Source: Tubulanus polymorphus (Eukaryota; Nemertea; Palaeonemertea; Tubulaniformes; Tubulanidae). From it: a DNA stretch of 64,000 nucleotides. The notes beneath the pieces were generated by a model. The model did not search any database. It was given only the letters and a program-made list of their open reading frames with translations, and was not told where the DNA came from. Position 1 is the first letter of the stretch, and every line of letters starts with the position of its first letter. This document shows positions 17,129-53,531 of the stretch, in pieces. The stretch lies in the NCBI RefSeq assembly GCF_964204645.1, contig NC_134032.1, positions 8,612,275 to 8,676,274 on the forward strand, in the 5' to 3' direction. Both the position numbers and the translations under genes were made by a program.

Positions 17129-17222
17129 CATCATAGTTCTTCGCTACTGTTAATGTGTTCAGCACCGAGATGGCGATCACTGCGACTGACACCAACGTTA
17201 AAAACCTCACGATCGCCGACAT
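17129..17222 (-). pseudogene. Orphan signal-peptide exon of the L1-like family
   Basis: An ATG exon of 94 nt encodes MSAIVRFLTLVSVAVIAISV followed by LNTLTVAKNYDG. It is nearly the same as the first exon of copy B and ends at a GTAAAAAT donor in the same phase. No Ig exon follows on the minus strand within the window. Homology to the copy B region stops almost exactly at the donor (about 17,126), so this is the cut edge of a duplicated block. Its upstream block has also lost about 195 bp found in copy B. Confidence 0.7.
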
Positions 17223-17709
17223 ATTTTCTGCTTGTTCGGATTTCGAGTTTTAACATCCGATCGACACGAAATCTGCAAACGATAAACGGATGATTATTTG
17301 GAAAACGGAAGTCAATAGAATTTTTATGGTGATCCGCCAACTTCCGCAAATCAATGAATCATAGCAATTTTTCTCAATTCTATAAAATTCCATGAAATAT
17401 ACAAAAAAACTGCGGCCTACAACTGTGTGCTGGCCAAAAGAGCCCACAGATCACACTACTACCAATCTGACCCTATTTATCAACTGTTTTCTACAACCTT
17501 CCGATTATCTAGTGTGTTTCTCCCTGGGTTATGAAATGTATACCATCATGGACTAATGGTCGTAGATTTTTTTAATCAAACTGAACGAATCATGAATAAA
17601 GTAACGGTAATTTAAGAATTAACTTAATCATACCTACGCTTTGAATGTTTTTTGATGATCGTTGTTAGCTTGTATACGTTAACGAATGGTTCACACGTTC
17701 CTAGGTAAG

Positions 17710-17925
17710 CGGTGTTTCGCCCGATCGTCCTCAGAAGGAATTACTGCGGTTCGTCTGTTCGCCCGTTTGTCCGAAGATTCAGTTAATTTAGGAAGCTTTA
17801 AAGACGCAAGACAATAGCCGTCTTGATATTCAGTCTATACGTGTATCTACCCTAGACACGTCTACAGAAAAAAACCGGCCCGATCATGTTCAAGATGGCT
17901 GTGCGACGGGGATTCTTGCCATTAG
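17710..17925 (+). repeat. Truncated copy of dispersed repeat family 1
   Basis: Contains ttcgtctgttcgcccg, tctaccctagacacgtctac and ttcaagatggctgtgc, which match the 8171 repeat. It lies between the orphan signal exon and GPCR1 and is repeated at 34,330-34,552 beside GPCR2. Confidence 0.55.
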
Positions 17926-17934
17926 TGATTAGGG

Positions 17935-18240
17935 CAAGAGGCATTTCTGTAGAAAATCCTTTCCTGAATCCAAACTGTGAATCAGTAAGTAATTTATATT
18001 TGTAAAAAAAACTTGATGATACAGGTATAAACAATCTTTTCCAGTAATTTAGATATACACGGTAGTGCTGAAATAAGTCGATGATTTGAGAGCCTGTCAC
18101 GATTTTTGTAGAATGGAGTAATAAGTGCATCTTTGAATAAATTAGGTACAATCCCAGATTATAACTACAAGTATAGCCGTAAAGAAGCGATAACGGGTTT
18201 TCTGACAAGCCATGCGGCTAAAATTAAGGAAAATTCAAAC
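17935..18240 (-). mobile_element. LINE reverse-transcriptase fragment
   Basis: Frameshifted minus-strand similarity to the start of a LINE reverse transcriptase: IPNLFKDALITPFYKN, then SKLLEKIVYTCI, then LLTDSQFGFRKGFST. Only the N-terminal RT region is present, so it is inactive. The same fragment recurs at 34,560-34,870 within the duplicated block. Confidence 0.65.
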
Positions 18241-18732
18241 GAAATTGACCAACCAGATAAACAACAGGATTAATCCCGCTTTTACGATCAAAAAGAAAAA
18301 AATTAAGGGATATAGAAAATAAAAATATTTTATTTGTGGGATTCGAACTTGATGTGGCAACTTCAGAAATAAAGATAGGGGATTCGAACCAGATATAACT
18401 GAAGATAATGAAAAAATGTCATTGATGAAATTGGCTGCAGACAAAGATTTGGATATTCTCGGAGCATTGCCCTTTTGGACGTATATTTGGCACATGTGCA
18501 TATGGATAGAAATAATTGTTTTAAAGCAGTTTCTAAGTTTGCTATATTTTTGTTTGGAATCAGTTGTTTTCCGGGTTGAAGAGCGTTAAAACAGCAGGTC
18601 TTATAACGCTTTAATGAGGTTAAAACCCTTTGTCTTCCATGGCTGCTCGCGTCTTACATACCACGAATCATTGACACGTAGCGAGTAAAACTGAAATCAA
18701 TGTTCATTTGAGGGCATTTCTACAGCGGATTT

Positions 18733-19647
18733 TCATACAGAAATATTCACGAATTTCAGTAAAAGATATATGTAGAAATTTACCGCATAGTTACAAACTT
18801 GTAAGTGAACAAATATGTCATATAGAACTTCCCTCTGTTCCGGTGGGATTGGTAACAATGAAGTAATGGCGGATGGGAGTAAGAATATAGCAAATGCGAG
18901 TGAAACTGTTACAAGCATTATTGTTGTACGTTTTGAATTTGTAGTTTTCCGATCTGACGAAACCATTTTTGAACCTCTGAATAGCTGAACTATTATAGCG
19001 GTATTTGATATCACAATGAAGGATAAAGGCAGTATATAACCGTAGATAACAGATACCACAAAGTATGTTATTTGGTCCAATAACTTATAGGAACATGCGA
19101 AAAACTGGTCGTTGAAATGTATCGACAATGCAGGTGTGAAATATATAACAAGTACATTCACTGAAGTGATTAACAGTATAGCAAATCTAGCGAATCCCGG
19201 TGTACATATCAGACGAGATGTGAACGGGAAAAGAACAACTGCCGCGCGTTCTAAAGATATCGCTACTATCAACCACGAACCATTGGCGGCTGCAAGCGCC
19301 ATTATAAATTCATAGATTTGACAACCGATCACTGAATTTATCACATATATTGGGCCAGCGTTGAGATGAAAGAGAGCGAACTGTAAAACAGGCAACAGCG
19401 CCAGGCTTTCACTGTATACAAAATCACAGACTGACAGAACGATCAGATAGTTAGCGTATGATAAACCGCGGAATCTACGACTTATCATTACCAGGAAAGT
19501 AGCTGAATTTCCAAACGCTCCAAACAGGAAGATGATGGGCAGAATGACCAGTGACACGGTACGGCGGATTCCAGACCTGTTCACCACTGACATGAGAACG
19601 ATGTAGCTGTTATACGTTTTGCCGATTTCTATCCGTGTAGAATTCAT
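18733..19647 (-). CDS. Class A (rhodopsin-like) GPCR 1, C-terminally truncated
   Basis: Single-exon ORF of 304 residues from ATG (MNSTRIEIG). It has two N-glycosylation sites before TM1 (N2, N23), GN in TM1 (LFGAFGNSATF), LSVCD in TM2, a Cys before TM3 (IGCQIYE), SLERAAV in place of the DRY motif, a Cys in extracellular loop 2 (FFACSYK), LLP in TM6 without CWxP, and NFYIYLLL for NPxxY in TM7. Layout and motifs fit an invertebrate peptide-receptor-like family; the ligand is unknown. Relative to GPCR2, a 7-nt deletion after TM7 shifts the frame and gives KFVNISV and a stop, removing the helix 8 region. Near-identical to GPCR2 elsewhere. Confidence 0.85.
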   Translation of the reverse strand: MNSTRIEIGKTYNSYIVLMSVVNRSGIRRTVSLVILPIIFLFGAFGNSATFLVMISRRFRGLSYANYLIVLSVCDFVYSESLALLPVLQFALFHLNAGPIYVINSVIGCQIYEFIMALAAANGSWLIVAISLERAAVVLFPFTSRLICTPGFARFAILLITSVNVLVIYFTPALSIHFNDQFFACSYKLLDQITYFVVSVIYGYILPLSFIVISNTAIIVQLFRGSKMVSSDRKTTNSKRTTIMLVTVSLAFAIFLLPSAITSLLPIPPEQREVLYDIFVHLQVCNYAVNFYIYLLLKFVNISV

Positions 19648-20129
19648 GATTCATATGAACATCAAATGAGAATACATCGACTGTCCGAGAGAGACGGACT
19701 ATAGAAGGGCGCTCTGCTGGCTGTTTGAGTGTGTACGGACTGTCTGAGAATGACATTCTGAGATCGAGTGTGTTGACATTCTGAGAGTGTATTGACATTC
19801 TGAGAGTGACTGTTTTAGAATGCGCTGCCTGTCCCGAGAATGTACTGTAGCTGTGTCCTGTCGGGTATCAGAAAATCAATTTAACATATGTATGAAGATA
19901 TCATTAAAGTCTTTATATTACAGCTACAGCTCATTTGTAAGATTTATTGCTGCGAATAGAATATCAGTCCTCAGAAATCTGACACTATTCACTCGGATTT
20001 AATGAAAGTTTAGTTGTATCTTATAAAAATGGAATATATTCGTGACAATAATCGTGACGATAAATTCGTGAATATTTCTGTACATTTCAACATCAACAGT
20101 TGCCAGTAACCAGTAACACAGTTTTGTGG
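19648..20129 (-). promoter_or_regulatory. GPCR1 5' flank with short tandem motif
   Basis: Upstream of the GPCR start lie three to four copies of a motif like tgacattctgagagtg (about 19,738-19,815). The same is found upstream of GPCR2, so it duplicated with the gene. It is probably 5' UTR or proximal promoter; no TATA box could be assigned. Confidence 0.4.
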
Positions 20130-20640
20130 AAACATTATGCCGCTTAATTCTGAGATTAGAAACCTCACAATCGGCGACTTATTTTCTACTAGTACGGTTT
20201 TCGAGTTTTAACATGCAATCGACAATGAATCTGTACGTGGAATGTGACTTCGTTGACAATATACCTGATAAGTGAGCCAAGATGTTGTTCGATAGTTCGA
20301 GTTAGGAGATAAGGGGCTTAAGATTTTACCGAATCAGGCTGTGAGAATTAATCGCTGGAATTTCCCGTTTGTCGCCAAAAAATAGAGACGAATCACGGCA
20401 ACTTTTAAACAGACACAGACAATAACAGGAAACGAAACGATAAACCGATGATTATTAGAAAAAGACGGAAGACATTTGAATTCTTCTTTTTTACGGTGAT
20501 CATCGAAATTCCGAATCAATGTCATAGGAAATTCTAAGAATTTCCTTTGAATTATACCCACAGCTGTGGATCTGGGATCAGAGTTAACTGATATACCATA
20601 ATCGACGGACAATAAAGATTCCGTACATTATCTTGATAAT
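20130..20640 (-). promoter_or_regulatory. Ig-gene-like promoter block with dead signal exon upstream of GPCR1
   Basis: The minus strand contains a degraded signal exon (SPIVRFLIS, with AAG where the ATG should be). Upstream of it is sequence resembling the block before the live signal exons of copies B and D (ttttcgagttttaacat, aatttcccgtttgtcgcc, acgataaaccgatgattat). It lies 0.5 kb upstream of the GPCR1 start in the same orientation, so it could supply the GPCR promoter or a non-coding first exon. That role is inference. Confidence 0.5.
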
Positions 20641-22021
20641 GGGATTTCATTCCACCTGGGTTTCTTATACTTTTGTATCGAAGTGGACCACACATTATCA
20701 AGTTTCACTTCTCTATCCTCGGAATCAATTAATTAACATGCGGTAAAGTTGAGGAAAATTTGATCTCAAATTGCAGTTACGCGGAACTATACAAGCAAAA
20801 CGTTGTAGACCCTCACTTGCGACATGTGGAATCCTTCATTGCCACGGCCCTAGTTGATGTCCTTTCCTGTACTTGAGTGACACCTGGTGGATACTCGTGG
20901 AATTCTTTGCCAACAGTTGGCTACTCATTTGCCAAAATTACGTATTCTAGTTGTTCTACTGCAAACTAGCGTAAATCTGTTGTTGTTAGGATTCAGGCTA
21001 GAATACTGCTCTAAAGAAACGATCGTAAGATGAACCGATAAATAGACAACACGATGGCATTTCGATACTTGAATATTACATGATCAATCGAATTAATCAA
21101 ACTTTATTTCATATATTTATTCACTTGGCTATGAATGAGCTATGGTACTCGAGCTAGTATTTGTTGTATTAAAATCTTACGGAAAAATTTAGCATTAAGA
21201 GTCTTAGTTTAAGATTTGTTCATAGATTAGATATTACGGCGTCTAGATAAATTGACAACACAATGATGATAATCAGGTGAGATAATATTGTTTATCTTTT
21301 TTAAATTGCCAGGATATTTTCTGTGTAGACCTTCTGATGTACCTTCCATCATAGAACTAGAATTGAACGGAACGCCGACTCCATGACGTCATTTTATGAA
21401 ATTGCGATTTTCAAAATTTCAGCACCCTCACCGTTAGCCATAAACAATAGATATTCGGTGATAATTCGATATATTTTTCGCGCGAGCAATGATGATACAA
21501 TTTAACCAAATGTTGAACAGTAAAGTTTGGACTAGTTAAAAATAGGTGCCTCTATAGATGAATATCGTTGACAATGAATTATAAAATATGAGCAGAATGA
21601 TATTCACGATTGATAATTTATTTGAGTTATATGTATATCGACTGTTGAATTGAATTGACCGGCGACCAGTCTAGTCCCGCGATATTGATGACGCAGAGCA
21701 CATCCACTCAAAACTTTATTGCTAACGGCGTGGGGCTGTAAAAAACACAAGATTCCATGATAATCCGGAAAGATAAGAATTTTTTAAGTTTTAGCGGGGC
21801 GTGGTAAATTCCTTTAAGGAGTCGGCATTCACATTCGCTTATATTTCTATGCTTCCATTCGTCATTATTGATTGGTGAAGTTAACCGTATTGTTTACTTC
21901 AGGAATGCTGGAAAAAAAATAAAACAGACACTTTTCATTCATCTTTTTTGAAACTATCGACGAAGAAAGCCGCCGGTAGTTACTCTCGGTGTTTAAAGGG
22001 TTAACCAACGTAGACACATAC
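20641..22021. other. Duplicated intergenic segment between GPCR1 and Ig copy A
   Basis: No exon recognised. The segment is nearly identical to 37,331-38,720, and its right half also to 26,866-28,170. No transmembrane exon for copy A was found here. Confidence 0.6.
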
Positions 22022-26890: not shown

Positions 26891-28172
26891 TTAGTTTAAG
26901 ATTTGTTCATAGATTAGATATTACGGCGTCTAGATAAATTGACAACACAATGATGATAATCAGGTGAGATAATATTGTTTATCTTTTTTAAATTGCCAGG
27001 ATATTTTCTGTGTAGACCTTCTGATGTACCTTCCATCATAGAACTAGAATTGAACGGAACGCCGACTCCATGACGTCATTTTATGACATTGCGATTTTCA
27101 AAATTTCAGCACCCTCACCGTTAGCCATAAACAATAGATATTCGGTGATAATTCGATATATTTTTCCCGCGAGCATTGATGATACAATTTAACCAAATGT
27201 TGAACAGTAAAGTTTGGACTAGTTAAAAATAGGTGCCTCTATAGATGAATATCGTTGACAATGAATTATAGAATATGAGCAGAATGATAGTTTATTTGAG
27301 TTATATGTATATCGACTGTTGAATTGAATTGACCGGCGACCAGTCTAGTCCCGCGATATTGACGACGCAGTGCACATCCACTCAAAACTTTATTGCTAAC
27401 GGCGTGGGGCTGTAAAAAACACAAGATTCCATGATAAGAAAAGAATTTTCTAAGTTTTAGCGGGGCTTGGTAAATTCCTTTAAGGAGTCGGCATTCACAT
27501 TCGCTTATATTTCTATGCTTCCATTCGTCATTATTGATTGGTGAAGTTAACCGTATTGTTTACTTCAGGAATGCTGGAAAAAAAATAAAACAGACACTTT
27601 TCATTCATCTCGCGGAAGCAACACGTCTTGTTCCGTTCAAGTCAAATACCGTGGATGAAGCGATGATCCACCAGGTGGAAACATTGCGCTGCATTAGGAC
27701 AACAAACGATGTCGGATTTCTTCTCAGATTCGATTCGTAAATAAATTTACCAAACGAATGAACCCAGAAGATCATTTTGAGCTAATCTCTTGCCGCTGAG
27801 AAGAGCCTTGCCTAATTTTGGTATAGGTAATTAAGAATCTAGATGAACGTAGAGAATGATTTATATATTGGATCGAGATGTCCTATTGCAATGCACGCCA
27901 TCTGGTGGGAATGCTTGTGCTACGGGGTCCTCTATCTGAGCATACCAGCAGCAACCCGCACCATATGACGTGACTAAAAGTTCACGTTAATTTTTAACTT
28001 TCTACCGGATTTTCAAATCCCCGAATCCAAATACTACGGCAATACGAGCGTGGTTATAAGATAACAGATTTGTTTTTCTGAAACTATCGACAAAGAAAGC
28101 CGCCGGTGGTCGAAGGGTATCACCTAATAGTTACTCTCGGTGTTTAAAGGGTTAACCAACGTAGACACATAC
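26866..28172. other. Intergenic segment between copies B and A, with a B-specific insert
   Basis: Positions 26,866-27,606 match the 3' flanks of copies A and C. About 27,607-28,070 has no counterpart there, where the flank runs directly into gaaactatcgacgaagaaag. The insert has no recognisable gene or terminal repeats and could instead be a deletion in A and C. Confidence 0.5.
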
Positions 28173-31100: not shown

Positions 31101-33652
31101 TTTAGAAAACATGGCCACGTAGATAGATCCTATCAGATCATCGTGAAGTTAAGCCTTCAGACATTTTCAGAAAATATGACTGCCAGTGACATCATTAAAT
31201 TTACTAGGCATTTTCGAAAAAGATGACTGCCTTAGAAATTTCCATATGACACCATAAAAATACACTTTGACACTGCCCCGGAAAAATGGTGACATTAATT
31301 CCAAATTCATGGAACAATCTATTCATCCTGATATTAAATTTTTTAAGTTAGGTGTGAAAAATTACATATTTTCGAAATCCAATATGATACCGTATTTTAT
31401 TTACACTGCTCTGATACGCAGTTATGGGTTTATAAATGAATGGTGTTACATGTATCATCTATCATTATGGTACCAACGTACAAATAGTAGACTCCGCTCT
31501 TCTCGGTACCGGTCGACAAGATAACCGGCTGCGTCGGTGAAATTCCATTCTGATCCCTGTCGTAAAATTCCTAGACCTACCGGTCTCTATGTCGGTATTC
31601 GGTTCCAAATAGAACCAAGTTAGGCGGAGTCTACTGTATATTGTTTCTGCAGATCGAACTATTTTTGAACTCTTACCGTTTGGACCGATCATAACCCTCG
31701 AATCGGTGGTGATTGCGCGTACGGTGCTGGCCTCGACCCTTCCGTACCCTTTGATGATCAGCCACGAGATGATGGCTCGCTTCGGGAACGAGTCCGGAGG
31801 GTTGCATTTCAATTCGGTGGTCAAGCCTTCCTGTACCTGCAACGTCGGTTTCACCTTCAAATTCTCCCAGCTAAAGTCACCGGTATCTGAAGGAGAGCAC
31901 AAAGTGGTCGTTTAAAATTTTCTGCAGCCCAGACCCAGAAATCGACATGGTTTATCAAAATGTTAATCAAGAAAAGAACAGGAAAAATTAAATGATCCAG
32001 TGATCAGTTGTCGTACGGCTGGGGCTGCTTAAGTTCGGAGATTCTTTTAAATCTAAGAGAACGTAGGGCTTAGTTCGCAAAAGGACTATTTATTCGATAG
32101 CCACCAACCGAAGAGTGAAAGGATAGGGAGAGATGAGAGGCGGAGGAAGTGAGTGTTAACATTTCATCATCGATCTGAATGGCGATTGTAGTTGTAAACT
32201 TACATTTCTCATTGACGACCACGTTGTTCGACGCCGCTTTCCCGAAATCGTTCTCGGCGTAGCACGCGTATTTAATGTTCTCCGGCGGGGTCTTCGCCGA
32301 CAACTCGTTGTTTCGACTCGGTCGCACCTTCAACTGCGTGGAATCGCGAGTTCCGTCCGGTTTAATCGGAAATTCATAGAATCCTGGGATGTGAGTGACC
32401 GGAGAGAACTCGCTGTTACCGGAACTCATCATCCAGCGGATCCTAAAAGAAAGAACACGACCGTGCGGCCAACTATTGGAAACTCGGTTCAACTGTCGAC
32501 CCGGCTGGCCAAAGGGTACCGGTACTTACATCGGTTTCGGAATGCCGCTGGCTTTGCACGTCAACTTGGCGCGTTCGCTCGACGACACCAGGAAACTTTT
32601 TGACACCGAATCGATCGACGGTGGAATTAGGGGGGGGCATCCTGTTTCAAGAAAAATGGCATCTTTTTACCGTGAAAAGGGAAACTTTCCCATTGAAAGC
32701 GTCACAGATCTTAGATATGAAGTGCCCGGGAACCTGAATAAATCATCTGAGATTGAATTCATTTTCATTTTCCCAAAACAGCAAAATCGTATCTGAATTT
32801 TGAAAAATCGTGACCAAATTTTTTAAACTAACACGAAAGGCAAAAAAATATATATAAATTATCTCATCGAGTAGATAATTCTTTTTTTTAAGGTTACGAA
32901 GTTCACAGATCACGAGTGTTTAAAAAATAAATAAATAACGATCTGGAACGGCCTAAATTGGAACGAACTGGAAATGGATTGGACTTTTTGCTGGTGTGAA
33001 CGCTTGGTCCGTACTAAATTTGAACGGGCCAAATTTAGACCGTTCTAAAATACGTATTGTGAATTCACCAGTTGACAAGGTAAAGAGTAAAGATTAGTTA
33101 TTGTCGATATTTTGACTAAATGGACTACTGAACTGAGAAGTACGGAACTGGTTCTTCAATTCTTCAATTGCTGCCATAAAGTTGGTTCGAAAAACGGTAT
33201 CAAAGAACTCGAACCCCTCGGGACTCTGTGACCGAAATTCCCCAATCATGTACTTTGATTCAAACAAAAAATGTTGTTAATTCGACCGACGATCGCTCAT
33301 CTATATATCTGTAGTACTATTTCTCCCGGTGCGGTGGGCTCGTTAAGGGACTCCAAACAAAGCAAATCAAACGAAATCTACCAATCAAATAAATAATCGG
33401 ATCAAACCCTGTTTTAAGATCATCAGTTAAAACAATCTATAGTAATCCTATCAGATTAAAAGAATCTACAATGTAATTTGAACCGGCGTCTTTGGAACTG
33501 GGTGCGGCCGTTGGCAGGGAACTAGATCGAGAAGGCACGGGAGACTTTAAAGACCTACCACCATAGTTCTTCGCTACCGTTAATGTGTTCTGCGCCAAGA
33601 AGGTGATCACTGCGACTGACACCAACGTTAAAAACCTCACTATCGGCGACAT
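28173..33652 (-). CDS. L1-like Ig copy B (signal peptide + Ig1-Ig5), Ig1 acceptor damaged
   Basis: The signal exon 33559-33652 (MSPIVRFLTLVSVAVITFLA, then QNTLTVAKNYG) is followed by Ig exons 32530-about 32627, 32204-32442, 31677-31886, 30943-31074, 30555-30660, 30208-30392, 29418-29549, 28715-28882 and 28173-28502. All Ig frames are open. Compared with copy A, about 63 bp is deleted at the 5' edge of the first Ig1 exon, removing its CAG acceptor; a cryptic CAG just upstream (gaaacaggatgc) would keep the frame and add about five residues. There is no transmembrane or tail exon, so any product is predicted secreted. The Ig2 second exon has a 6-nt in-frame deletion, shared with copy C. Introns are near-identical to copies A and C. 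Confidence 0.65.
29740..29835 (+). repeat. Dispersed repeat family 2 in copy B intron
   Basis: Same position and sequence as the copy A intron repeat (cctgccgggagcg at its right end). Confidence 0.5.
33310..33425 (-). repeat. Dispersed repeat family 2, inverted
   Basis: On the minus strand it reads cttaaaacagggtttgatcc, then atttgattggtagatttcg, then gagcccaccgcaccgggag. It lies in the first intron of copy B. Confidence 0.45.
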
Positions 33653-34552: not shown

Positions 34553-34559
34553 ATTAGTT

Positions 34560-35341: not shown

Positions 35342-36292
35342 TCATTTGAGGGCATTTCTACAGCGGATTTTCATACAGAAATATTCACGAATTTCTCGTC
35401 CCAGTAAAAGATATATGTAGAAATTTACCGCATAGTTACAAACTTGTAAGTGAACAAATATGTCATATAGAACTTCCCTCTGTTCCGGTGGGATTGGTAA
35501 CAATGAAGTAATGGCGGATGGGAGTAAGAATATAGCAAATGCGAGTGAAACTGTTACAAGCATTATTGTTGTACGTTTTGAATTTGTAGTTTTCCGATCT
35601 GACGAAACCATTTTTGAACCTCTGAATAGCTGAACTATTATAGCGGTATTTGATATCACAATGAAGGATAAAGGCAGTATATAACCGTAGATAACAGATA
35701 CCACAAAATATGTTATTTGGTCCAATAACTTATAGGAACATGCGAAAAACTGGTCGTTGAAATGTATCGACAATGCAGGTGTGAAATATATAACAAGTAC
35801 ATTCACTGAAGTGATTATCAGTATAGCAAATCTAGCGAATCCCGGTGTACATATTAGACGAGATGTGAACGGGAAGAGAACAACTGCCGCGCGTTCTAAA
35901 GATATCGCTACTATCAACCACGAACCATTGGCGGCTGCAAGCGCCATTATAAATTCATAGATTTGACAACCGATCACTGAATTTATCACATATATTGGGC
36001 CAGTGCTGAGATGAAAGAGAGCGAACTGTAAAACAGGCAACAGCGCCAGGCTTTCACTGTATACAAAATCACAGACTGACAGAACGATCAGATAGTTAGC
36101 GTACGATAAACCGCGGAATCTACGACTTATCATTACCAGGAAAGTAGCTGAATTTCCAAACGCTCCAAACAGGAAGATGATGGGCAGAATGACCAGTGAC
36201 ACGGTACGGCGGATTCCAGACCTGTTCACCACTGACATGAGAACGATGTAGCTGTTATACGTTTTGCCGATTTCTATCCGTGTAGAATTCAT
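35342..36292 (-). CDS. Class A (rhodopsin-like) GPCR 2, full length
   Basis: Single-exon ORF of 316 residues from ATG (MNSTRIEIG). It has the same motifs as GPCR1: TM1 GN, TM2 LSVCD, disulfide Cys before TM3, SLERAAV for DRY, ECL2 FFACSYK, and NFYIYLLL for NPxxY. It continues past TM7 into GREIREYFCMKIRCRNALK, a normal helix 8 with a Cys-containing basic tail. Differences from GPCR1 are few (for example LSTGP against LNAGP). A single-exon GPCR inside an intron-rich cluster suggests retroposition or an intronless family. The ligand is unknown; a peptide-receptor-like assignment is by general resemblance. Confidence 0.88.
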   Translation of the reverse strand: MNSTRIEIGKTYNSYIVLMSVVNRSGIRRTVSLVILPIIFLFGAFGNSATFLVMISRRFRGLSYANYLIVLSVCDFVYSESLALLPVLQFALFHLSTGPIYVINSVIGCQIYEFIMALAAANGSWLIVAISLERAAVVLFPFTSRLICTPGFARFAILIITSVNVLVIYFTPALSIHFNDQFFACSYKLLDQITYFVVSVIYGYILPLSFIVISNTAIIVQLFRGSKMVSSDRKTTNSKRTTIMLVTVSLAFAIFLLPSAITSLLPIPPEQREVLYDIFVHLQVCNYAVNFYIYLLLGREIREYFCMKIRCRNALK

Positions 36293-36829: not shown

Positions 36830-37330
36830 AAACATTATGCCGCTTAATTCTGAGATTAGAAACCTCACAATCGGCGACTTATTTTCTACTAGTACGGTTT
36901 TCGAGTTTTAACATGCAATCGACAATGAATCTGTACGTGGAATGTGACTTCGTTGACAATATACCTGATAAGTGAGCCAAGATGTTGTTCGATAGTTCGA
37001 GTTAGGAGATAAGGGGCTTAAGATTTTACCGAATCAGGCTGTGCGAATTAATCGCTGGAATTTCCCGTTTGTCGCCAAAAAATAGAGACGAATCACGGCA
37101 ACTTTTAAACAGACACAGACAATAACAGGAACGAAACGATAAACCGATGATTATTAGAAAAAACGGAAGACATTTGAATTCACCTTTTTTACGGTGATCA
37201 TCGAAATTCCGAATCAATGTCATAGGAAATTCTAAGAATTTCCTTTGAATTATACCCACAGCTGTGGATCTGGGATCAGAGTTAACTGATATACCATAAT
37301 CGACGGACAATAAAGATTCCGTACATTATC
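36830..37330 (-). promoter_or_regulatory. Ig-gene-like promoter block with dead signal exon upstream of GPCR2
   Basis: Duplicate of 20,130-20,640: a relic signal exon lacking its ATG, then sequence matching the Ig promoter block. It lies about 0.55 kb upstream of the GPCR2 start in the same orientation. Confidence 0.5.
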
Positions 37331-40299: not shown

Positions 40300-40392
40300 A
40301 TTTTCCTCATTATCCATTTGATTGGTAGATTTGGTCTGATTACTTCTCATTTCGTGTCCCTCAACAAACCCACTACACCTGCCGGGAGCGAA
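40300..40392 (+). repeat. Dispersed repeat family 2 in copy C intron
   Basis: Same position and sequence as in copies A and B. Confidence 0.5.
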
Positions 40393-43300
40393 ACATTCTT
40401 TGCCAGAACCAAGTGCACATGGAACCAAGGAGAGGACAACTTTGAATATCGTGACTTCTCAGAGCTCCAACAGGAAAATAAACAGCTCTTGAAATGGCAA
40501 TTTAGATATCCTTGGAGTCATCCCTAGATAATGTTATGGCTTCAGAAACCATGATTGGGATATTGTTGGAGCCACCCACTTAAGAGAGGTTTAAAAGGCA
40601 TGATTGTGAGAGTGATGACTGAATTTTTGATGATTTGGGCGTCTTTGTAGCCATCCTAATTTCCTTCAAAACTTCACATCAAATTCAAACTGTCATTGTG
40701 AAATATCATTAAGCTTTGAATCATACATTTTTCATGTTGATTTAGATTATAAAACAAAACTTACTGATGATTTCGACGCGGGTTCTGGACGTTTTACTGC
40801 CCATCCAGTTCGACACCGTACACTCGTACTCGCCGGCGTAACTCGGGGCAAAATTTATCAAATACAAGTGAACGTTGCCGTTCGAATACGAACGATTCGT
40901 AGGCATCGTCTTGCCGTCGAGGCGACGCCACGAAACGGTAGCGACCGGCCTGTAAAAAAATATGCAAGAATATATACACACCTTACCATCGCGCATCCTC
41001 GCTTTCCAGGGTTTGATTACCATCCGCTGACGTTCACGCCAAAAACCCTGGCCGCAAACCAGGTATCTTGGCCATTACGCTGGCCAAGATACCTTTGGCG
41101 GACAGGTTGAAACACCGGACTACTAAACTGAATAGGTTTAAGCATCTTACTTGGTGCTTGAAATACAATACAAATCGATCACATCGCGTTCTAACGCGCT
41201 TACAACCGGCGGTGGATTCGCAATCAACGCTGGAGGCTTGTTCGGCACGTTGGGATCTGCAATCGAAAAATATTGATATTTCGAAAGAAATCATTGAGCA
41301 AAGTATAAGCAAATTGGGGGGTAGTCAACAAATGACAAACAACGTTAACTTTTCGCAATTTTGAATTTCGGTCGGAACTTCCAATATTTCGAGGAAAAGA
41401 AACAAACTTTGAATTCGGGAAACATCGGAATCAAATACTCTATTCGAGATATTATCATATATTTAGAACAGAATATCTGTCAATATTGGTATGGAATAAA
41501 CGAAATGAAATTTTCCATTTTGACTTACTTGGTTTCACTTTGATGGAAATCGGACTGCCCTGTTTGATAACACCCTGAGCGGCGTTATTGTACTGACAGA
41601 CGTACGACTCATCCGGTTTGGTCGCGTCGGATGGTAAAATGTGCGAGAAAAACAGGTTACCTACGAACGAAGAGTTTACGCACGCTTTTAGAAAACATGG
41701 TCACGTAGATAGATCCTATCAGATCATCGTGAAGTTAAGCCTTCAGACATTTTCAGAAAATATGACTGCCAGTGACATCATTAAATTTACTAGGCATTTT
41801 CGAAAAAGATGACTGCCTTAGACATTTCCATATGACACCATAAAAATACACTTTGACACTGCCCCGGAAAAATGGCTGACATTAATTCCAAATTCATGGA
41901 ACAATCTATACATCCTGATATTGAATTTTTTAAGTTAGCTGTGAAAAATTACATATTTTCGAAATCCAATATGATACCGTATTTTATTTACACTGCTCTG
42001 ATACGCAGTTATGGGTTTATAAATGAATGGTGTTACATGTATCATCTATCATTATGGTACCAACGTACAAATAGTAGACTCCGCTCTTCTCGGTACCGGT
42101 CGACGAGATAACCGGCTGCGTCGGTGAAATTCCATTCTGATCCCTGTCGTAAAATTCCTAGACCTACCGGTCTCTATGTCGGTATTCGGTTCCAAGTAGA
42201 ACCAAGTTAGGTGGAGTCTACTGTATATTGTTTCTGCAGATCGAACTATTTTTGAACTCTTACCGTTTGGACCGATCATAACCCTCGTTAGGTGGTGATC
42301 GCGCGTACGGTGCTGTCGTCGACCGTTCCGTACCCTTTGATGATCAACCACGAAGTGATGGCTCGCTTCGGGAACGAGTCCGGAGGGTTGCATTTCAACT
42401 CGGTGAACGAGCCTTCCTGCAAGAGCAACATCGGTTTCACCTTCTTATTCTCCGGGCTGAAGTCACCGGTATCTTAAGGAGAGCACAAAGTTGTCGTTTA
42501 AAATTTTCTGCAGCCCAGACCCAGAAATCGACATGGTTTATCAAAATGTTTATCAAGAAAAGAACAGGAAAATGATCCAGTGATCAGTTGTCGTACGGCC
42601 GGGGCTGCTTAAGTTCGGAGATTCTTTTAAATCTAAGAGAGCGTAGGGCTTAGTTCGCAAAAGGACTATTTATTCGATAGCCACCAACCGAAGAGTGAAA
42701 GGATAGGGAGAGATGAGAGGCGGAGGAAGTGAGTGTTTGACATTTTATCATCGATCTGAATGGCGATTGTAGTTGTAAACTTACATTTCTCATCGACGAC
42801 CACGTTGTTTGACGCCGCTTTCCCGAAATCGTTCTCGGCGTAGCACGCGTATTTAACGTTCTCCGGTGGATTCTTCGCGGCCAACTCGTTGTTGCGACTC
42901 GGTCGCACCTTCAACTGCGTGCGATCGCGCGTTCCGTCCGGTTTAATCGGGAACTCGTAGACTCCAGGGATGTGAGTGATCTGAGTGAAATTGCCGTCAC
43001 CGTAACTGACCATCCATCGGATCCTAAACGAAAAAGATAATGCGAATACGATGACCAGCTAATTCTAAGCACATAGAGGTCACCCTCAAGGCGGCATAAA
43101 TGGGAGAGAGCCTCATTGACCATAAAGAGATGAACTTATCCTTTTGCAAGTATGAAATATATTTCGATGACTCATGACTTCTCTAGGACATTTCAGACTC
43201 GTGACCTCTTCTAGCATGTGGATTCATTTTAGTTATGCCATCATCAGATACCAGGTGGCACATACGTAGTATTGGAAGACGCAAGATGTTTTGCGGGTCA

Positions 43301-43399
43301 ATTTTGGTCCTGGTTCATTGGATTTAACATGAATTTCCTCTTTGATGATGATTTCTTATTCAATACATTTATGATTATGATGTTATTGTTTGTTCTTTG

Positions 43400-44240
43400 G
43401 AGTCGAAGATGACAATAACTTCATTTCCAGGTCATGTGGGTTCTCGGGTGAATGATGAGGCCAAGTTTGGCTCTTAAGCAAGTTGAAAATTGTGTGCTAT
43501 ACAGAAGCTGGGTCGGGTGTAGCCTTTCCGAGAGTACGTTTCTGTATTGGCTCATCAGATCACCTGTTTTCGGTGCTCGTTGGCCCTTGTTGGATCGTGC
43601 TTCTGAAGCTAGCTCTGTCAAGGCAGGGCTATCCCAGCTTTTGGCATTGATAGCAAACGTAACATTTTTCGGCTGTCCTTGTAGCGATCCGTTTGCCCAC
43701 CTGGTCATTGGACATTTTGCCAGAGGCAAGTTTACCAAATAGGAACTGTTTTGAGATGCGGACCATCTGACTTGTGCAATCTGAATCTAGGTATAGGTAC
43801 TTTGGAGGCCTGCTGTGATGTGGAAATCAGTATTGAGGATTCTATCTTGCCATCTTATTTGAAGGATCCTGCGAAGACATCTCATGTGGAAGTGGTTTAG
43901 CTGATTTGCAGGTCTAATATCGACAGTCCAGGTCTCGCAGGCCTAGCCGTGATGCGAGGACGATGGCACGGTATACTGAGTAAGTTCTTGGTCATGGTTG
44001 TTATCCTTCTGCTGTCTCCCAGACGCATGTTTAAGTCTACATAAAGCAGAGCTGGCAGCGTGTTCACTAGGTAGACTTATAAGTGGCCAACTCCAACCAG
44101 GTTTATCCCATTTAATCTGAATTGCAGGCTTGGTGTAAAGTTTCTCGGATGCGGGTTGACAAAGTAATTTGTCTTTGGGATGGACATATAGCGAGACCGA
44201 ACTTATCGCAGGCTGAAGAAAGGCGAGCCATGTCACGCTG
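43400..44240 (-). mobile_element. 3' fragment of a second LINE type with zinc-finger-like end
   Basis: The minus strand carries, with frameshifts and stops, a LINE ORF2 C-terminus: LCQPASEKLYTKPAIQIKW, ACETWTVDIRPANQLNHFH, MRCLRRILQIRWQDRILNT, a GGQTDRYKDS-like stretch, and RAKLGLIIHPRTH, a C2H2-like end. This arrangement is common in animal RTE/Jockey-related elements and differs from the CR1/L2-like copy at 11.6-13.6 kb. It lies between the two Ig1 exons of copy C. Inactive. Confidence 0.7.
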
Positions 44241-47200
44241 CAAACTGCGTTAAGTGATGGTATACAATGCGGTATCGTCGACGAAGAAGATATTCCAGAG
44301 TTTCTTTTAACTCTATATATGATTCGTAAGTTGAACAGCCCTAAATCAGTTTTTGAATTGACCTTTATACCCTAGAGAGTCGCAAAATGCACAACAGAGC
44401 ATTGTAGTGGCCAGAACACCCCCTCTACGTCCTACATTTTCCGTAAGCTGGTTTAACCTCTATATCTTGTACAGGATGTTGTTGAAATAGCTATTTTATA
44501 TATCAAAGATGACCACCAGTCAGCCATCTTGAAAGGTTTTTTCGGTGATAAAGCTATTTCATCAGGGCTTTCCTGGAAGGTAGAAACTCTCAAATCAATA
44601 GGATTCTTCCCAACATAATGTCATAAATGTCAAAGGAATCTTAGGTGGGTCGCGCTACCCGCGGCGTTGCACTATGACAAATATTTTCTGGAGCTGTTCA
44701 AAATCGCTGATTTTTTAATGAGGCCTTGAAAACACATAACTTATAGGTAAGATACCGTCAACGTAGTAGTAACAGGTGGTGGGCTACCTACCTGGGTTTT
44801 GGGGAACCGCTTGCTTTGCACCTTAACGTGGCACGATACCTCGACGATCAGACAATTCCCTGACACCAAATCGATTGATGGTGGGATTCGCACTGAAATT
44901 TTAAAAAGCACACTGCTGCCTAATGAAGTGATGCAAAAATGAGATATAGAATGAAGTATCCGTTATCATCGAAAGTGGTATGAATTATTATTTGTCCATA
45001 GTCCTACATTTTGCTAAAGTGATGAATTTAAAAACAATAGAAATTTCAAAATTTCAATTACATTTGCGGCTATTTTCTACTTCCTTTCCGATCACGCTTT
45101 CGGACGCGAGCCTATAGGTGCCGCGTACTTCCTGTACGGGTGTTGTAGTCCTGGCGACGCACGTGTAGTCACCGCGTAGGTCTTCTTCCGTGTTGTATGT
45201 CCACGAGTTGATATGCAGCGAGTTGTCGGACTTGTCCTGCCAGATTTGATTCTCGATGTAGATGATCGGGCTACCGTTGTACAACCATTCGATTCGCGGA
45301 ATCCTCGCCGGATCAGATTGCGTTTTGCACGGCAGGATGACGGTATCTGTGAATTTGAACGTCATCATCGACGCCCCGTTACTCGGTTTCGGTTCTTGCA
45401 TCTCGAGAGGCACTTTGAATACAACGTATGAACTTGAAAAAATTTATTCATAAAAAGAGGGTCATACTTTATCATAGGTTTTAATATAATCAGAGGTTCG
45501 ACTTCAGTAACAGATCATAATCTTACTGAATAACGTTCTGGATTGAAGACATTGAAAATTAGAAGGTCGTCATTATAGAAACTAATCATAATCTTTGAAA
45601 TCATCGATAATGATAAGATTGCCACAAGTAGCCGCCTTAAATCATTAACAATGATTTTACTAATACTTACAAACAACATTAATATATCCGTTCGCTATGA
45701 TGCTACCATGAATATTTGAAGCCCGACATTGGACAACTCTCATATCTGAAGCGCCTTCCCCGCCACGGGTCAGGTTACGCAATTCGTAAGTGTTCGCGGT
45801 TACCGTCAATTTGTTATCATTATTCGTCGCTGAATAAAATGCAATGTTTCTATAAATTTGCTGTCTTGGACTCTTTGGAGTTATTTCGATTTTATATGAA
45901 ATTACCTCGATCATTTCGATTAGCTGACTCATAAATCATTTACTAACCGAAATGGCATTTTGCCAAATTAATCTGTTAAACTAGATCCAGGACCCATTTT
46001 CAAATTTTTTGAACATATTTCTAATCTTTAATCTCTCGAGTTGGAAACGTTAGGTACCGTTTGTCTATGTCGGACAGACAGTAAGACGTTATGTAAACGC
46101 GATTCTGATTTTATAAGAATAGACACAATATCCGTAAATCGACAAATTAGAACTCCCGATACTAATCAGTAAACATTTAAAAGTTCCCCAGCCGTAATTA
46201 AGGTTTGAGGTTACGACCTCCATTTCTATTCAAAATGTTTTCTTTACTTACGGGGTACTGGGACGAGATTTTCGAGCCATTCAGTAGTCGGAGTCGGGTT
46301 ACCGGTCGCCACGCATTCGAATTTAGCCGTGTCGCCGATAACGTACGTCGAATCGACCGGTTTCTTGATGAACTTCGGTAAAGCTTAAAATGAAATGTTG
46401 GAAATTAACAAAGATTTCCTCGCGATTTCACGAATATAAACTATTTTTTTCTGTTTTACAAAATATTTCTGAAACCGTCATTATCGGTTTCGATTCGCAG
46501 CAAAAAAAAATCCTAATGGCGAATATTTCTTTACACACCAGGCTCGCCATTTTGTGACGGGCTATCACATGTTCTTGACATATAAATAAATTAACTTATA
46601 CAATCCTCAGTTTAAGTCGGTACCGACAACCATATGGCCAAAAGACTTCTCTGCCATCAGATCTCAGCAGAATCTATGAAAAATGTATTCTAATTGCTAA
46701 ACAATCAAGCCCAGTCCTATCTCTTCTTACAATATTGTCAAAGAAAGTATATAAGAAAATATGATACGAAATGAGAGAGCATGACTAATTAGTTTGACAG
46801 GGATTAACCTATTGTCACGTGAAGAGAGAAAAATTTGAAATCTTACATAATGCAAAATGAGACTCTTTATATTTTGATAATACAGCAGTTACGAAGAGCA
46901 AGACTTCAGAATGATTATTGCACTATACAAAGTAGGGTTACAGCAGTTTACTAACTAAAACTAACAGATTTGTCACGAAAGTGCCGCACTTGAAATATAC
47001 AACCACTACGGGATTCGAACAGACCAACAAAAGACCAACCAGGTGTGAAAAAAATCGCTTCTAAATGCCGAATGAAAATATCTTAGGAAGTGTTGAATGA
47101 AACCCTCGATGCGGGTATTTTCGCAGCCATCCTAATTTCATTCAAAACTTCACGGTATATTCAGCTTGTCATTTGAAATATTTTCGCTGTGAATCATTAA

Positions 47201-50200: not shown

Positions 50201-51426
50201 TTATCTAAATATCATAGATAATTGCTCGTAGGTTCAACTGTCGACCTGACCAGCCAAAGGGTACTTACGTCGGTTTCGGAATGCCGCTGGCTTTGCACGT
50301 CAACGTGGCGTATTCGTACGACGACACCAGGGAACTTTTCGACACCGAATCGATCGACGGTGGAATCCGTACTGAAAACACAAATGAATGACCAACAGCT
50401 TGGTTTCGATTGACTATATGATCTCTGGAATATGATTTCGGATTTGACGCTTCTGATGATAGCATTTAATATGGACTTCATCAATAAGTTATCCAGTTTC
50501 ATTGATTAATGCGTTTATTCAACGAATGAACCGTGCTGTTATACTGAGAATGTAACTCGTGATAGTTGAGTTTTTGTTGATTTGTTGAAAGGTAATGGAA
50601 ATGAAAATTATTAGATGGTAATAACCCATAGCTGCAAAGAAATGAAATATAATGAGTTTTCTGTACAGCTGCAACTTTCGCATTCGTTCTAAAGAGAATT
50701 AAAACATTTGGAGAAAGATATCATCGCCGAACGATGTAACTGGAATTAATGCACGGTGTTACTGAAACGAATGCTACCTTGATTAATAACTTGGAGCCGC
50801 CCTCTCTCTTTGACTCATAAATGCGATTATCTCAATGGGTAAAGTGTTTGTAGCAATGTAGTGAAAGGACTATTCACGCATGTGCGAATTAGTCGGTGTT
50901 GTCGGCATTTTTATGCTTCATTCAAAGAGCAATACTGTACAGGGATCTACATGTTCAGACAGATTAAAATGCATTTCTGTAAGCATTTGCAAAGCGAAAG
51001 TAGTTGAATTTGACAGGAGACGAATCTATCAATGAAAAAAGCTGGGAAAAGTAAAATTATGATAATGCTTCGCTGAATAACCATAGGGTTTTCTGCCGAA
51101 TTTGACAAAACCGCAATACAATCTAATAATAATGAAGTGGGGTTTAGTTTACGTTGGATTGTTCAGAAACTTGGTGAAGGGCTTGTGTGGTCGCGTGGTG
51201 GTGGTATTTTTCTTTTTGAAGCTCGGTAGGCCATCGATGGTGTAATAATTCCTGAGGTGGTTTTTTTGGAATGCAGGCTAGATTTAGCGGGAAGGGATCA
51301 CGTGGTCGAAACTTGGTAGTAGATGACAGTAGGGGGTAGAGACGGTAGAACGGTACTGGCAACCATCAGTAAAGGACGCATTTCAAAATTTCGCATATCC
51401 TCGCTGTTGTTGGTAATTTTGTAGAG

Positions 51427-51692
51427 GATCGGATTCAGTCGTCACGCTTTTTATCTGAACGTATGTTTTTGAAAAGAAGTAGAAATATATGTAGAATATC
51501 TTTTCCGAGTAGAAAATGTTTTCATCATAGATCACAAGTGTTTTAAAGATAAACAAGATCGGATTCAATTGTTCACGCCGATCGCGCGATTTATTTTATC
51601 TTATGTTATGAAAAGAAGTAAAAATAAATATTGAATATCTTTTCGTGTCGATAAATTTTTTTTATAGGTTTCGAAGTTCATAGATCACGAAG
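51427..51692. repeat. Two-copy tandem duplication in the first intron of copy D
   Basis: Two units of about 130 bp, 51,427-51,560 and 51,562-51,692, share gatcggattca, gaaaagaagta, gaatatctttt and catagatcac. The segment gaagttcatagatcacga corresponds to the first-intron edge of copies A and B, so it is part of the ancestral unit. Confidence 0.5.
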
Positions 51693-53234
51693 CCATTTGC
51701 GACGGAAGGAATTTGTTCCAGCATTCAGCACCGCTAAACGAACAGCAACTTAACGTTAGCAACTGAACGTCCTATCCGAGATCGTCCAGAATTTGCTTAT
51801 TTAGATTTTGGCTATTAGTTCCTGTCGGCAGACATTTCCTCGCATTTTCCTTGTGAATACAGTCAACCTCAATCCGTATAACTTGGGACCGAGCTTTTTA
51901 GTACGGATCGAGTGACTTACGGATAACCCTAATTCTAATTCTACGAATCAATGACCATTCGTCTAAGCACATAAAGCGTTAAATAGCCGGTCTAAAGATC
52001 ACTAAATCGCCTCTTAAAATCATATGGCTACTGAAGATACTTTAAAGCAATGCGATAATGCACCATTATTAAATGTAGGAGCTATATATAGACTGACATT
52101 AGGTGGATTACTTCAGCGTTTTCGAGAATAGTAACATATATAACACATTGACCACAAACCTCATTACAATTGTTTTTATCTCTTTTTACTATATCCTCAA
52201 CAGCTGGATTACACATTAGGCTTTACATAGAAATTGGATAACGGGACCACGTAAGTGAAAATACGGATAATGAATACGAATTATAGAGACAGATTTTTGA
52301 AGGGAATAACGTTAGTTGAAAAGATCGGGGCCGACCGATTTGCTATATAATCGCTATATTGGAAAAACGTTCATGAAATCGCATCTGAGTTGTCAAAACA
52401 CTTTGAGAGTCCTGTTGTACTACATGATTGTGTTCAAGTGTTCAAGTATCACCCAGAACCTTTTCGATTTGATAGCTATTAGAATAGATAACTACATGTT
52501 CTTATAAGCAAGAAAATTAACTTGAAAGTTTATTGACGCCTTGAAAAAAAATACACACATTGCTTAATATTGTCGACAATAAAAAATATGATATCAAATG
52601 TAATGTCAAGGATCAACTAACTTATTTCAAATGACAGGCAACCAGTCTAACCCCGATATATTAATGACGTAACGCACATTCTCTCAAAAATAGGTATCAA
52701 ATTTATTCATAAAAAATTTTATGAAATATTTTCAGTCACAAAATAAATGCCAAAATTCACAATTGTTATTTTGAAACGCCAATATTGATGACGTAGTGCT
52801 CATCGACGCACACAGAGCCCTCATATAACGCATACTAGGTATCAATGTGTATGAACATTATTGTAATGGTTTTTACGGTGTCAAGAAATATTCCATATTG
52901 CATTCATCCTGATCTAACAAAAGAACATCATTTAGATTTGCGCCAATAAGAACCCGTTCGCGGTCATAAAGAAACAAACTGGTACGTGGCATATTACATA
53001 AACCGCGTTTACACACCACTAACTTGTTGTACCAGTCCAAATGGGTCCGCCCCTGGAACCGGACAAATTTGGAACGTAACCAAATAGAGTGGGCGTTCAT
53101 ATACACGTTGCTAAATTGGTTACGCAGAGTTATGACTTGCCCCGCAATTTAAACAAAAAAATGCTGTAAATTCGACCGTCGATAACTGTACTTAGATTTA
53201 CGATTTCAAAATCAAACCCCCCAATTCATTTCAC

Positions 53235-53335
53235 TCTCGGCAGGGTGGGTTTATTAAAGGGACACAAATAAAAAAAAAATCAAACAAAATCTACTAATCA
53301 AATAGATAACATGGTAAATCCCTGTTTTAAGATTT
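53235..53335 (-). repeat. Dispersed repeat family 2, inverted
   Basis: Minus strand reads cttaaaacagggatttacca, then gtgtccctttaataaaccca, then ccctgccgagagtg. It lies in the first intron of copy D. Confidence 0.45.
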
Positions 53336-53531
53336 TAAAAGAATCTAGAGTAAGATTTGATGTGGCTTCTATAGAACTGGGTCCGGTCGTTGGTTTGCCG
53401 CGAGCTAGATCGAGAAGACACGGGAGACTTTAAAACCTACCAGAGTCCTTCGGTACTGTTAATGTGCTCTGCGCTGAGATGGCGATCACTGCAACTGACA
53501 CCAACGTTAGAAACCTCACAATCGGCGACAT

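Follow-up and report, generated by a model that had tools for sequence, protein, structure and literature searches.

The window, a 64,000-nucleotide stretch of Tubulanus polymorphus DNA, carries exons Ig1b onward of a plus-strand membrane gene (M2) and, on the minus strand, four Ig copies (A to D) among which two GPCR genes are interspersed (Table 1). The four minus-strand copies reported by the first-pass annotation were borne out, and all match M2 in the order and splice phases of their exons. Its statement that all four repeat Ig1 to Ig5 held fully for A, but not for B (Ig1a), C (Ig1a and Ig2a) or D (Ig1b and the Ig5 donor). The range given there for the array, 17129-53531, does hold A to D, but it starts at an orphan signal-peptide (SP) exon, after which no Ig exon was found. 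Left of the window are a second membrane gene, M1 (C8 ~8551.9k-8575.2k), and a truncated and broken minus-strand fragment, E. When the assembly was searched with the M2 exons, 76 matches were listed from the best 80 of 112 candidates, and those of at least 50% identity all lay inside C8:8566501-8662412. The only complete SP exons on the minus strand of the window are at 17.2, 33.6, and 53.5 kb.

Table 1 Features of the locus. Positions are those of the window unless prefixed with C8.
Feature	Position	Strand	Remarks
M2 SP exon	from C8:8603418	+	left of window
M2 Ig1a	C8:8611497-8611599	+	left of window
M2 Ig1b-Ig5	215..5376	+	215-453, 1150-1359, 1750-1887, 2204-2309, 2674-2858, 3386-3517, 3965-4129, 5047-5376
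M2 transmembrane (TM) exon	5721..5846	+	three of same type in genome
M2 first cytoplasmic exon	6643..6721	+	conserved in M1
M2 FIGQY cytoplasmic exon	9970..10162	+	includes stop codon; Pfam Bravo_FIGEY
Orphan SP exon	17129..17222	-	weak donor GTAAAA; downstream Ig exon not found
GPCR copy 1	18707..19647	-	frame broken close to C-terminus
Candidate 3' end of A	21715..21907	-	acceptor, then AFLK-stop 21907-21894; AATAAA 21720-21715 at edge of dispersed repeat
Copy A	22022-26506	-	Ig1a 26404-26506, Ig1b 26078-26316, Ig2a 25551-25760, Ig2b 24811-24948, Ig3a 24420-24525, Ig3b 24036-24220, Ig4a 23248-23379, Ig4b 22545-22712, Ig5 22022-22351
Insertion, ~460 bp	27611..28073	-	intron after B Ig5; missing in A and C
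Copy B	28173-32627	-	Ig1a remnant 32530-32627, Ig1b 32204-32442, Ig2a 31677-31886, Ig2b 30943-31074, Ig3a 30555-30660, Ig3b 30208-30392, Ig4a 29418-29549, Ig4b 28715-28882, Ig5 28173-28502
SP exon upstream of B	33559..33652	-	phase-1 donor GTAGGT
GPCR copy 2	35345..36292	-	intact, single-exon 7tm_1
Copy C	38721-43023	-	Ig1b 42785-43023, Ig2a 42264-42472, Ig2b 41529-41660, Ig3a 41151-41256, Ig3b 40765-40949, Ig4a 39974-40105, Ig4b 39271-39438, Ig5 38721-39059
Stretch upstream of C Ig1b	43050..43800	-	~400 bp is dispersed repeat with seven genome matches including self
Ig1a-like extra exon remnant	44792..44892	-	lies between D and C; ends set by eye
Copy D	45089-50371	-	Ig1a 50269-50371, Ig1b 49912-50139, Ig2a 49306-49515, Ig2b 48242-48379, Ig3a 47962-48067, Ig3b 47236-47420, Ig4a 46252-46383, Ig4b 45671-45826, Ig5 45089-45412
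SP exon upstream of D	53441..53531	-

M1 and M2 are intact L1CAM-derived receptor genes that encode five Ig units, no FN3 domains, and a TM segment with a FIGQY tail. The full M2 model matched PF13882 at 1.8e-23 over positions 1-85 of 86, and M1, which also has a TM exon, gave a FIGEY match of 2.4e-14. Pfam Ig_3 was over cut-off in four stretches of M2 and no FN3 match was obtained in M2 at E 0.01. Proteins of the L1CAM family usually have six Ig plus four or five FN3 domains; M1 and M2 have the L1-type Ig units and tail, but not the six-Ig and FN3 set. A hidden FN3 between Ig5 and the TM exon of M2 was ruled out, the intron there being only 344 bp. Compared with neuroglian, the fifth Ig unit best matched Ig1 and Ig6 rather than Ig5, with weak scores. 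A separate neuroglian gene is present on contig C3 (Ig matches in five of six scanned ORFs and fn3 in three of four, with one fn3 over cut-off). No FN3-less L1CAM-type receptor was found in the literature searched.

Copies C and D and fragment E are decayed. A 1-bp deletion in Ig2a shifts the frame of C, for which neither an adjacent Ig1a nor an SP exon was found, whereas D has an 11-bp frameshifting deletion in Ig1b and has lost its Ig5 donor, with an in-frame stop 11 residues further on. Retained introns and broken frames would be expected of an unprocessed pseudogene array; the frames are broken in C and D but not in A or, from Ig1b on, in B. All nine Ig exons of A (Ig1a to Ig5) are open in frame, and an SP exon of its own was not found. 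In B, the acceptor and first five bases of Ig1a are deleted and the frame is open from Ig1b to Ig5. Such open frames are not predicted by simple decay. Nor is the stem of copies A to C (S 13, N 14), where N was below neutral (p 0.003); this lineage was thus constrained, whether or not it then had a TM segment, although conversion would lower the ratio as well.

The absence of TM and cytoplasmic exons downstream of A to D, first noted from their flanks, extends to the whole assembly. The wider search for minus-strand membrane exons that the first-pass annotation had proposed detected none: with E values up to 10, the FIGEY tail exon and the TM exon each gave three assembly matches, which were M1, M2, and the C3 neuroglian gene, and neither exon type was found on the minus array. 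Diverged TM exons were detectable, because the TM query matched the C3 exon at only 41% identity. Every AG site between Ig5 and the next gene was also read in phase 1, and gave no convincing TM or GPI end. The Ig5 donor is retained in A, B, and C, and in each the acceptor ranked second by a splice-site matrix leads to an AFLK-stop ending, with AATAAA 179-187 nt beyond. The matrix was built from this cluster (34 distinct acceptors, 19 distinct donors) and is a weak guide since it ranks the true TM acceptor of M2 just fifth of 46. A search with the post-Ig5 tail listed 41 matches (from the best 40 of 662 candidates scored); 36 were to a short dispersed repeat at query positions ~290-473 and the others were A, B (two pieces), C, and one C8 piece, with no source gene among the matches listed. 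Fusion of Ig5 to the GPCR frame was rejected because a stop precedes the ATG of that frame by one codon and relatives of the GPCR are single open frames genome-wide.

A soluble product is possible only from a unit that starts at the SP exon upstream of B and uses exons of B or A. The SP exon could be joined to B through a cryptic acceptor for Ig1a at 32641, a weak one that keeps the frame, or with Ig1 skipped, or else to the intact Ig1a of A; termination after Ig5 would give five Ig units in secreted form, able to bind or block the membrane receptor. The SP-B (cryptic acceptor) and SP-A joins give frames open from ATG to stop, the 3' endings of A and B described above favor such a product, and the tip of the B lineage (S 9, N 12, p 0.03) points the same way. 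However, the true Ig1a acceptor of B is gone and its cryptic substitute scores 0.9, compared with 2.7 or more for all known acceptors, whereas A lacks its own first exon and could be reached only by skipping the exons of B. The SP donor scores 4.1 versus 7.8-12.5 for the Ig exon donors, although the SP donors of M1 and M2 also score only 3.9. On balance, a working soluble-ectodomain gene is conceivable but doubtful. The copies had been read as sources of soluble ectodomains, if expressed, and otherwise as a nursery of decaying duplicates: decay applies to C, D, and E, and only the B/A unit is left as a candidate for a soluble product.

The strongest new fact is that the exons of A, B, and C form a patchwork in which exons differ more than introns. 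Between A and B there were 48 differences in 1502 exon sites and 23 in 2746 intron sites (Fisher p 5e-8); the corresponding values were 57/1501 and 54/2767 for A-C (p 4e-4), and 83/1501 and 55/2751 for B-C (p 2e-9). M1 and M2, used as a control, diverged in the usual order (exons 3.5%, introns 7.4%). When the exon mask was shifted circularly, the observed count was reached in 10 (A-B) and 3 (B-C) of 4329 shifts, and in 274 for A-C, which is a weak result. Private exon changes, those having neither the M nor the D state, numbered 4 in A, 15 in B, and 26 in C among ~1500 sites, close to the intron tips of about 11, 12, and 43 in ~2750 sites. As the private exon changes accumulate at about the intron rate, new mutations do not cause the exon excess. 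Rather, the excess consists of variants that the copies share with M or D and that are arranged in blocks. Nonsynonymous changes are numerous among these differences (A-B Nd 35.5, Sd 14.5), as diversifying selection would produce, but synonymous sites also exceeded introns by 2.8- to 4.8-fold (p 3e-5 for A-B, 7e-4 for A-C, and 4e-9 for B-C). Given this and the source of the excess states, diversifying selection in place of gene conversion is unlikely.

The A plus GPCR1 segment is 96.4% like C plus GPCR2 across 9.2 kb, and intron differences among A, B, and C are 1-2%. Heterozygosity of this level occurs in many invertebrates, and thus two haplotypes of one locus might have been assembled in series. 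However, the 150-kb stretch contains no N letters, the flanks and inserts of the copies are unlike one another, and D and E are much more diverged, which together make an assembly artefact quite improbable.

The exon mosaic fits exon-confined gene conversion, and the pattern of shared sites gives some indication of its direction. Thirty exon sites are informative: at each, a lone minus copy carries an M state, and the remaining two carry one that is absent from both M genes. D joined the lone copy at 20 of these sites, the pair at 8, and neither at 2; hence the majority fit retention of an old state in one copy together with exchange between the others. Just two exons, Ig2b in A and Ig3b in B, indicate a membrane gene as donor. 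In Ig2b, A has the M state at sites 61, 95, and 96, where B, C, and D have the other state. In Ig3b, B has the M state at 96, 102, and 112 (at 112, that of M2) and A, C, and D have the other, within an M2-B run of 26 polymorphic sites (p 0.0005). Transfer from M to a minus copy is thus indicated at just 8 of the 30 sites, plus the split site Ig3b 112. M1 and B share a run of 24 sites in Ig2a (0/2000 permutations), but D shares the state of B at six of eight sites, and a block common to A and C may have been imported there rather than a transfer from M1 to B. A run of 18 sites across Ig3a to Ig3b is common to M2 and A (p 0.0065). Such exchange between the two arrays could also mean that the minus copies serve as a sequence reservoir diversifying M1 and M2; this is very unlikely, as the sites that give a direction run from M to the minus copies; one codon fits M2 with A, B, and C versus M1 with D.

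That an undetected membrane exon is joined to A, B, or C is extremely unlikely: 5 of 116 AG sites after A and 4 of 118 after C open a phase-1 hydrophobic stretch, as do 16 of 366 past GPCR1 as far as 10.2 kb, but those after A and C lie inside a copied promoter region and differ in frame between the two copies, the count for A is within chance (50 shuffles of the region after A only, mean 2.6, maximum 12), the strongest far read (18.4 kb) is curtailed in the sister copy at 35.0 kb, and B and D gave none (0/69 and 0/124).

The minus array consists of 3'-truncated duplicates of a receptor gene of L1CAM origin that lacks FN3. We favor, as the probable explanation, that most of this array is decaying, with exons patched by conversion and one unit that might encode a soluble ectodomain. 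Segmental duplication would have enlarged the array, with A plus GPCR1 and C plus GPCR2 as two copies of one ~9-kb block. Exons would be the parts still similar enough between diverged copies to be patched by gene conversion, the donors probably being the membrane genes in at least the two tracts named above and other minus-strand or unplaced sources elsewhere, as in the 5' part of Ig1b of C. At most one transcription unit, from the 33.6-kb SP exon with exons of B and/or A, could yield a secreted protein of Ig1-5 that stops a few residues past Ig5, while the bulk of the array decays. If expressed, the B/A unit would give an adhesion family a genetically separate soluble form, its binding face kept in step with that of the membrane form by gene conversion; even if it is silent, exons that differ more than introns are a clean signature of exon-limited sequence exchange. 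A larger scheme would make a recognition system out of an L1CAM gene, in which FN3-less M1 and M2 each face a tail-to-tail TM-less partner array (E by M1, A to D by M2) and exon-only conversion from the receptor keeps the B/A soluble product matched. As the receptor is indicated as donor at just 8 of the 30 informative sites and the split site, this is a long shot, and a decoy role of the minus copies is hypothetical.

Among solved structures, the Ig1-Ig5 protein of copy A best matched neurofascin (7ok5, 1.7e-44), with hemolin lower (1bih, 2.1e-18). The likeness to L1CAM, neuroglian, and neurofascin lies in this match and in the TM segment and FIGEY tail of M2, whereas M2 differs in its five Ig units and lack of FN3, and A to D also lack TM and tail. 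In the soluble L1-deltaTM isoform, as outlined in PMC6398979, the L1 ectodomain is released by omitting the TM exon through alternative splicing of one gene; here, the anchor exons were lost in duplicated copies and the soluble form is putative. Hemolin is described as a secreted insect Ig protein with an immune role, four Ig domains in a horseshoe, and kinship to neural adhesion molecules (PMC9163686, PMC11999971). A secreted A/B product would resemble it as a soluble Ig-domain relative of neural adhesion molecules, but with five Ig units and from recent local duplicates. A transcript that combines an SP with no anchor would have to start from the SP exon that lies before B. According to the account in PMC5701461, SIGLEC11 and SIGLEC16 are Ig receptors of opposite signals; gene conversion swaps their ectodomain exons, in part with a partner that is nonfunctional. 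In contrast, the partner copies here lack TM and tail, and assembly searches found no tail for A to D that could oppose that of the receptor. Such pairs would have ectodomains kept alike by conversion; here, an exon mosaic is present, and the sites that show a direction, 8 of 30 plus one, point to the receptor as donor.

We analyzed a continuous stretch with no N, comprising the window (C8:8612275-8676274) plus 66 kb leftward and 20 kb rightward, within the animal's 267.8-Mb assembly of 77 contigs. The first-pass annotation had claimed four minus-strand Ig copies (A-D) lacking membrane exons and facing a membrane gene. These copies are real, and the absence holds across the assembly. Whole-genome searches with the tail profile and with the transmembrane (TM) exon, at E values up to 10, each gave three matches: the plus-strand L1CAM-derived receptor genes M1 and M2, and neuroglian. 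No FIGEY tail or TM exon was among these genome-wide matches on the C8 minus strand, an absence that is strong rather than absolute because the search tool can miss weak matches. In a whole-ectodomain search (76 matches listed; best 80 of 112 candidates scored), every listed match of at least 50% identity lay within C8:8566501-8662412.

Coordinates of the locus features (a position w in the window corresponds to 8612274+w on C8, and negative values lie left of the window). SP, signal-peptide exon; GPCR1 and GPCR2, single-exon 7tm genes interleaved with the Ig copies; E, minus-strand fragment left of the window.
Feature	Position	Strand
M2 SP exon	starts -8856	+
M2 Ig1a	-777..-675	+
M2 Ig1b-Ig5	215-5376	+
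M2 TM exon	5721-5846	+
M2 cytoplasmic exon	6643-6721	+
M2 FIGQY exon	9970-10162	+
Orphan SP exon	17129-17222	minus
GPCR1	18707-19647	minus
SP exon upstream of B	33559-33652	minus
GPCR2	35345-36292	minus
D SP exon	53441-53531	minus
E SP exon	starts -22549	minus
Neuroglian (separate gene)	C3:7256-7264 kb	

The sequence following Ig5 gave no support for a membrane anchor in A-D. GTATGT is kept after Ig5 in A, B, and C, and the A sequence departs from M1 and M2 within ~60 bp past this exon. Acceptors at position 21907 in A, 27573 in B, and 38606 in C lead to AFLK-stop, each ranked second by a small splice matrix; the top-ranked acceptor gives an anchorless tail of 28 aa in A and C and 15 aa in B, and read-through meets a stop after nine codons. 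AATAAA lies 179-187 nt downstream of the AFLK acceptor, in A at the edge of a dispersed repeat that makes up 36 of the 41 matches listed for the tail. When all AG sites were read in phase 1, hydrophobic stretches appeared at 5/116 sites in A, 0/69 in B, 4/118 in C, 0/124 in D, and 16/366 past GPCR1 down to 10.2 kb; the same reading of M2 gave 5/46, and 50 shuffles of the A region gave a mean of 2.6 and a maximum of 12.

The alternative fates proposed for the copies were soluble ectodomains or a nursery of decaying duplicates. Judged by their sequence, C, D, and E are decaying. Copy C carries a 1-bp deletion in Ig2a and has no adjacent Ig1a, and upstream of it lies a dispersed repeat (seven matches including itself). 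In D, Ig1a is intact, Ig1b has an 11-bp deletion, and Ig5 has lost its donor and meets an in-frame stop 11 residues further. Fragment E has a damaged Ig1a donor and half of Ig1b, beyond which no match was found. In A, all nine Ig exons have intact frames and splice sites; no SP exon of its own was found, and the tail of B lies upstream. Copy B is open from Ig1b to Ig5 but, compared with A, is missing ~60-65 bp that include the acceptor of Ig1a together with the first five bases of that exon. A cryptic site at 32641 would preserve the frame, with an acceptor score of 0.9 vs 2.7-14.9 for known acceptors. The GTAGGT donors of five of six SP exons, those of M1 and M2 included, score 3.9-5.0, the orphan 0.4, and Ig donors 7.8-12.5. 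A soluble decoy, for which at most one transcription unit is eligible, is unproven.

The exon-confined patchwork of A, B, and C is the part of the locus that would merit a second look from a specialist. Between Ig1b and Ig5, differences numbered 48/1502 exon vs 23/2746 intron sites for A-B (Fisher p 5e-8), 57/1501 vs 54/2767 for A-C (p 4e-4), and 83/1501 vs 55/2751 for B-C (p 2e-9), p values that are rough because sites within one tract are not independent. Of 4329 circular shifts of the exon mask, the observed count was attained by 10 for A-B, 3 for B-C, and 274 for A-C, so the A-C excess is not significant by this test. Synonymous sites were likewise in excess over introns, whereas the M1-M2 control had the normal order (exons 3.5%, introns 7.4%). 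Introns group A with B in 6/7; among the eight exons, A pairs with B in Ig1b and Ig2a and with C in Ig3b and Ig5, and B pairs with C in Ig4b. In Ig2b A-B is the most distant pair, Ig3a gives a tie, and the copies do not differ in Ig4a.

Private exon changes, with neither the M nor the D state, numbered 4 in A, 15 in B, and 26 in C over ~1500 sites, compared with ~11, ~12, and ~43 over ~2750 intron sites. These are near the intron rate (about twice it in B), and the remainder of the exon excess consists of states common to M or D. At 30 sites a single copy has the M state; D joins that copy at 20, the other two at 8, and neither at 2. Those eight sites, together with Ig3b 112 (M2 state present in B but not in M1, A, C, or D), point to transfer from M to minus copies. 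The best such tracts are Ig2b of A (3/4 sites) and Ig3b of B (2/5 plus site 112); the remaining single sites fall in Ig2a of both B and C and in Ig5 of B. As D agrees with B at 6/8 sites of Ig2a, A and C probably hold a common imported block there.

Run tests (334 polymorphic columns, 2000 permutations; Ig1a and gapped columns excluded) gave p < 0.05 in 8/15 pairs, including all three pairs of A, B, and C. The others below that level were M1-M2 (72 sites, 0/2000 permutations), M1-B in Ig2a (24 sites, 0/2000), M2-B in Ig3b (26 sites, p 0.0005), M2-A (18 sites, p 0.0065), and B-D (p 0.024); M1-A near Ig2b gave p 0.062. Ig1b of C (42785-43023, minus) has 12 private changes plus 5 common to D only. 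Its first 45 bases are rich in changes absent from all other copies, and A-C homology stops 10 bp upstream; this 5' end would be a junction with an unsampled copy.

Values of dN/dS were 0.28-0.30 for M vs A or B, 0.71 for A-B, 0.58 for A-C, and 0.51 for B-C. By parsimony, the A-C stem (S 13, N 14; p 0.003) and D tip (S 39, N 56; p 4e-5) fell below neutral; the other tips gave p 0.14 (C), 0.03 (B), and 0.72 (A). Because conversion disturbs such ratios, they are no proof of a selected soluble protein.

M1 and M2 appear to be an L1CAM offshoot without FN3, since the 698-aa M2 model had no FN3 match, while the separate neuroglian has fn3. The model contains Ig_3 in four stretches (five Ig units counted by exons) and a FIGEY tail; M1 has the same parts ~46-51 kb further left. 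Among the C3 neuroglian ORFs scanned, Ig families were found in 5/6 and fn3 in 3/4, one above the curated cut-off, and an additional piece preceding the TM had fn3 slightly below it. With copy A as query, neurofascin was the top solved-structure match of the Ig part. M1-M2 intron divergence is 0.5-1.9% from Ig2a to Ig3b but 23% in the following intron. A 2.1-kb tract of 96% identity, introns included, is common to M1 (C8:8566882-8569015) and M2 (840-2972), with flanking blocks at 85-88%; its sequence is likely that of a conversion tract. The first M2 intron contains a tandem repeat of ~50-bp units (-5538..-4727; C8:8606736-8607547). Both genes have a second partial Ig1a-like exon after Ig1a (-631 and -48134), possibly a lost alternative exon.

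The A+GPCR1 (17267-26326) and C+GPCR2 (33894-43033) blocks are copies, 96.4% alike. Tail-to-tail order is found at both loci (M1 then E, M2 then A-D), and M1-M2 homology stops 0.8 kb and 1.9 kb short of the minus elements; the pairing of membrane gene and minus partner may predate the M1-M2 duplication. Literature searches on FN3-less L1CAM/neuroglian, tandem L1CAM clusters, and exons diverging more than introns did not yield this arrangement. A LINE-like element with a reverse transcriptase fragment (Pfam RVT_1; 12417-12923, minus) lies between M2 and the minus array, which is adjoined by a MatE transporter with a long open frame (55607-57190, minus). The GPCRs belong to a very large genome-wide single-exon 7tm family (1779 first-look candidates), in which at least 126 matches span almost the whole length at 66-100% identity, four with internal stops. 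Upstream of both lies ~395 bp of the Ig-gene 5' region (36856-37251 and 20156-20553, minus), and a third, inverted copy (-16757..-16368, +) has no GPCR. These segments extend to the eighth signal-peptide codon, with the start codon altered in 2/3, and a GPCR may have captured the promoter of the Ig gene.
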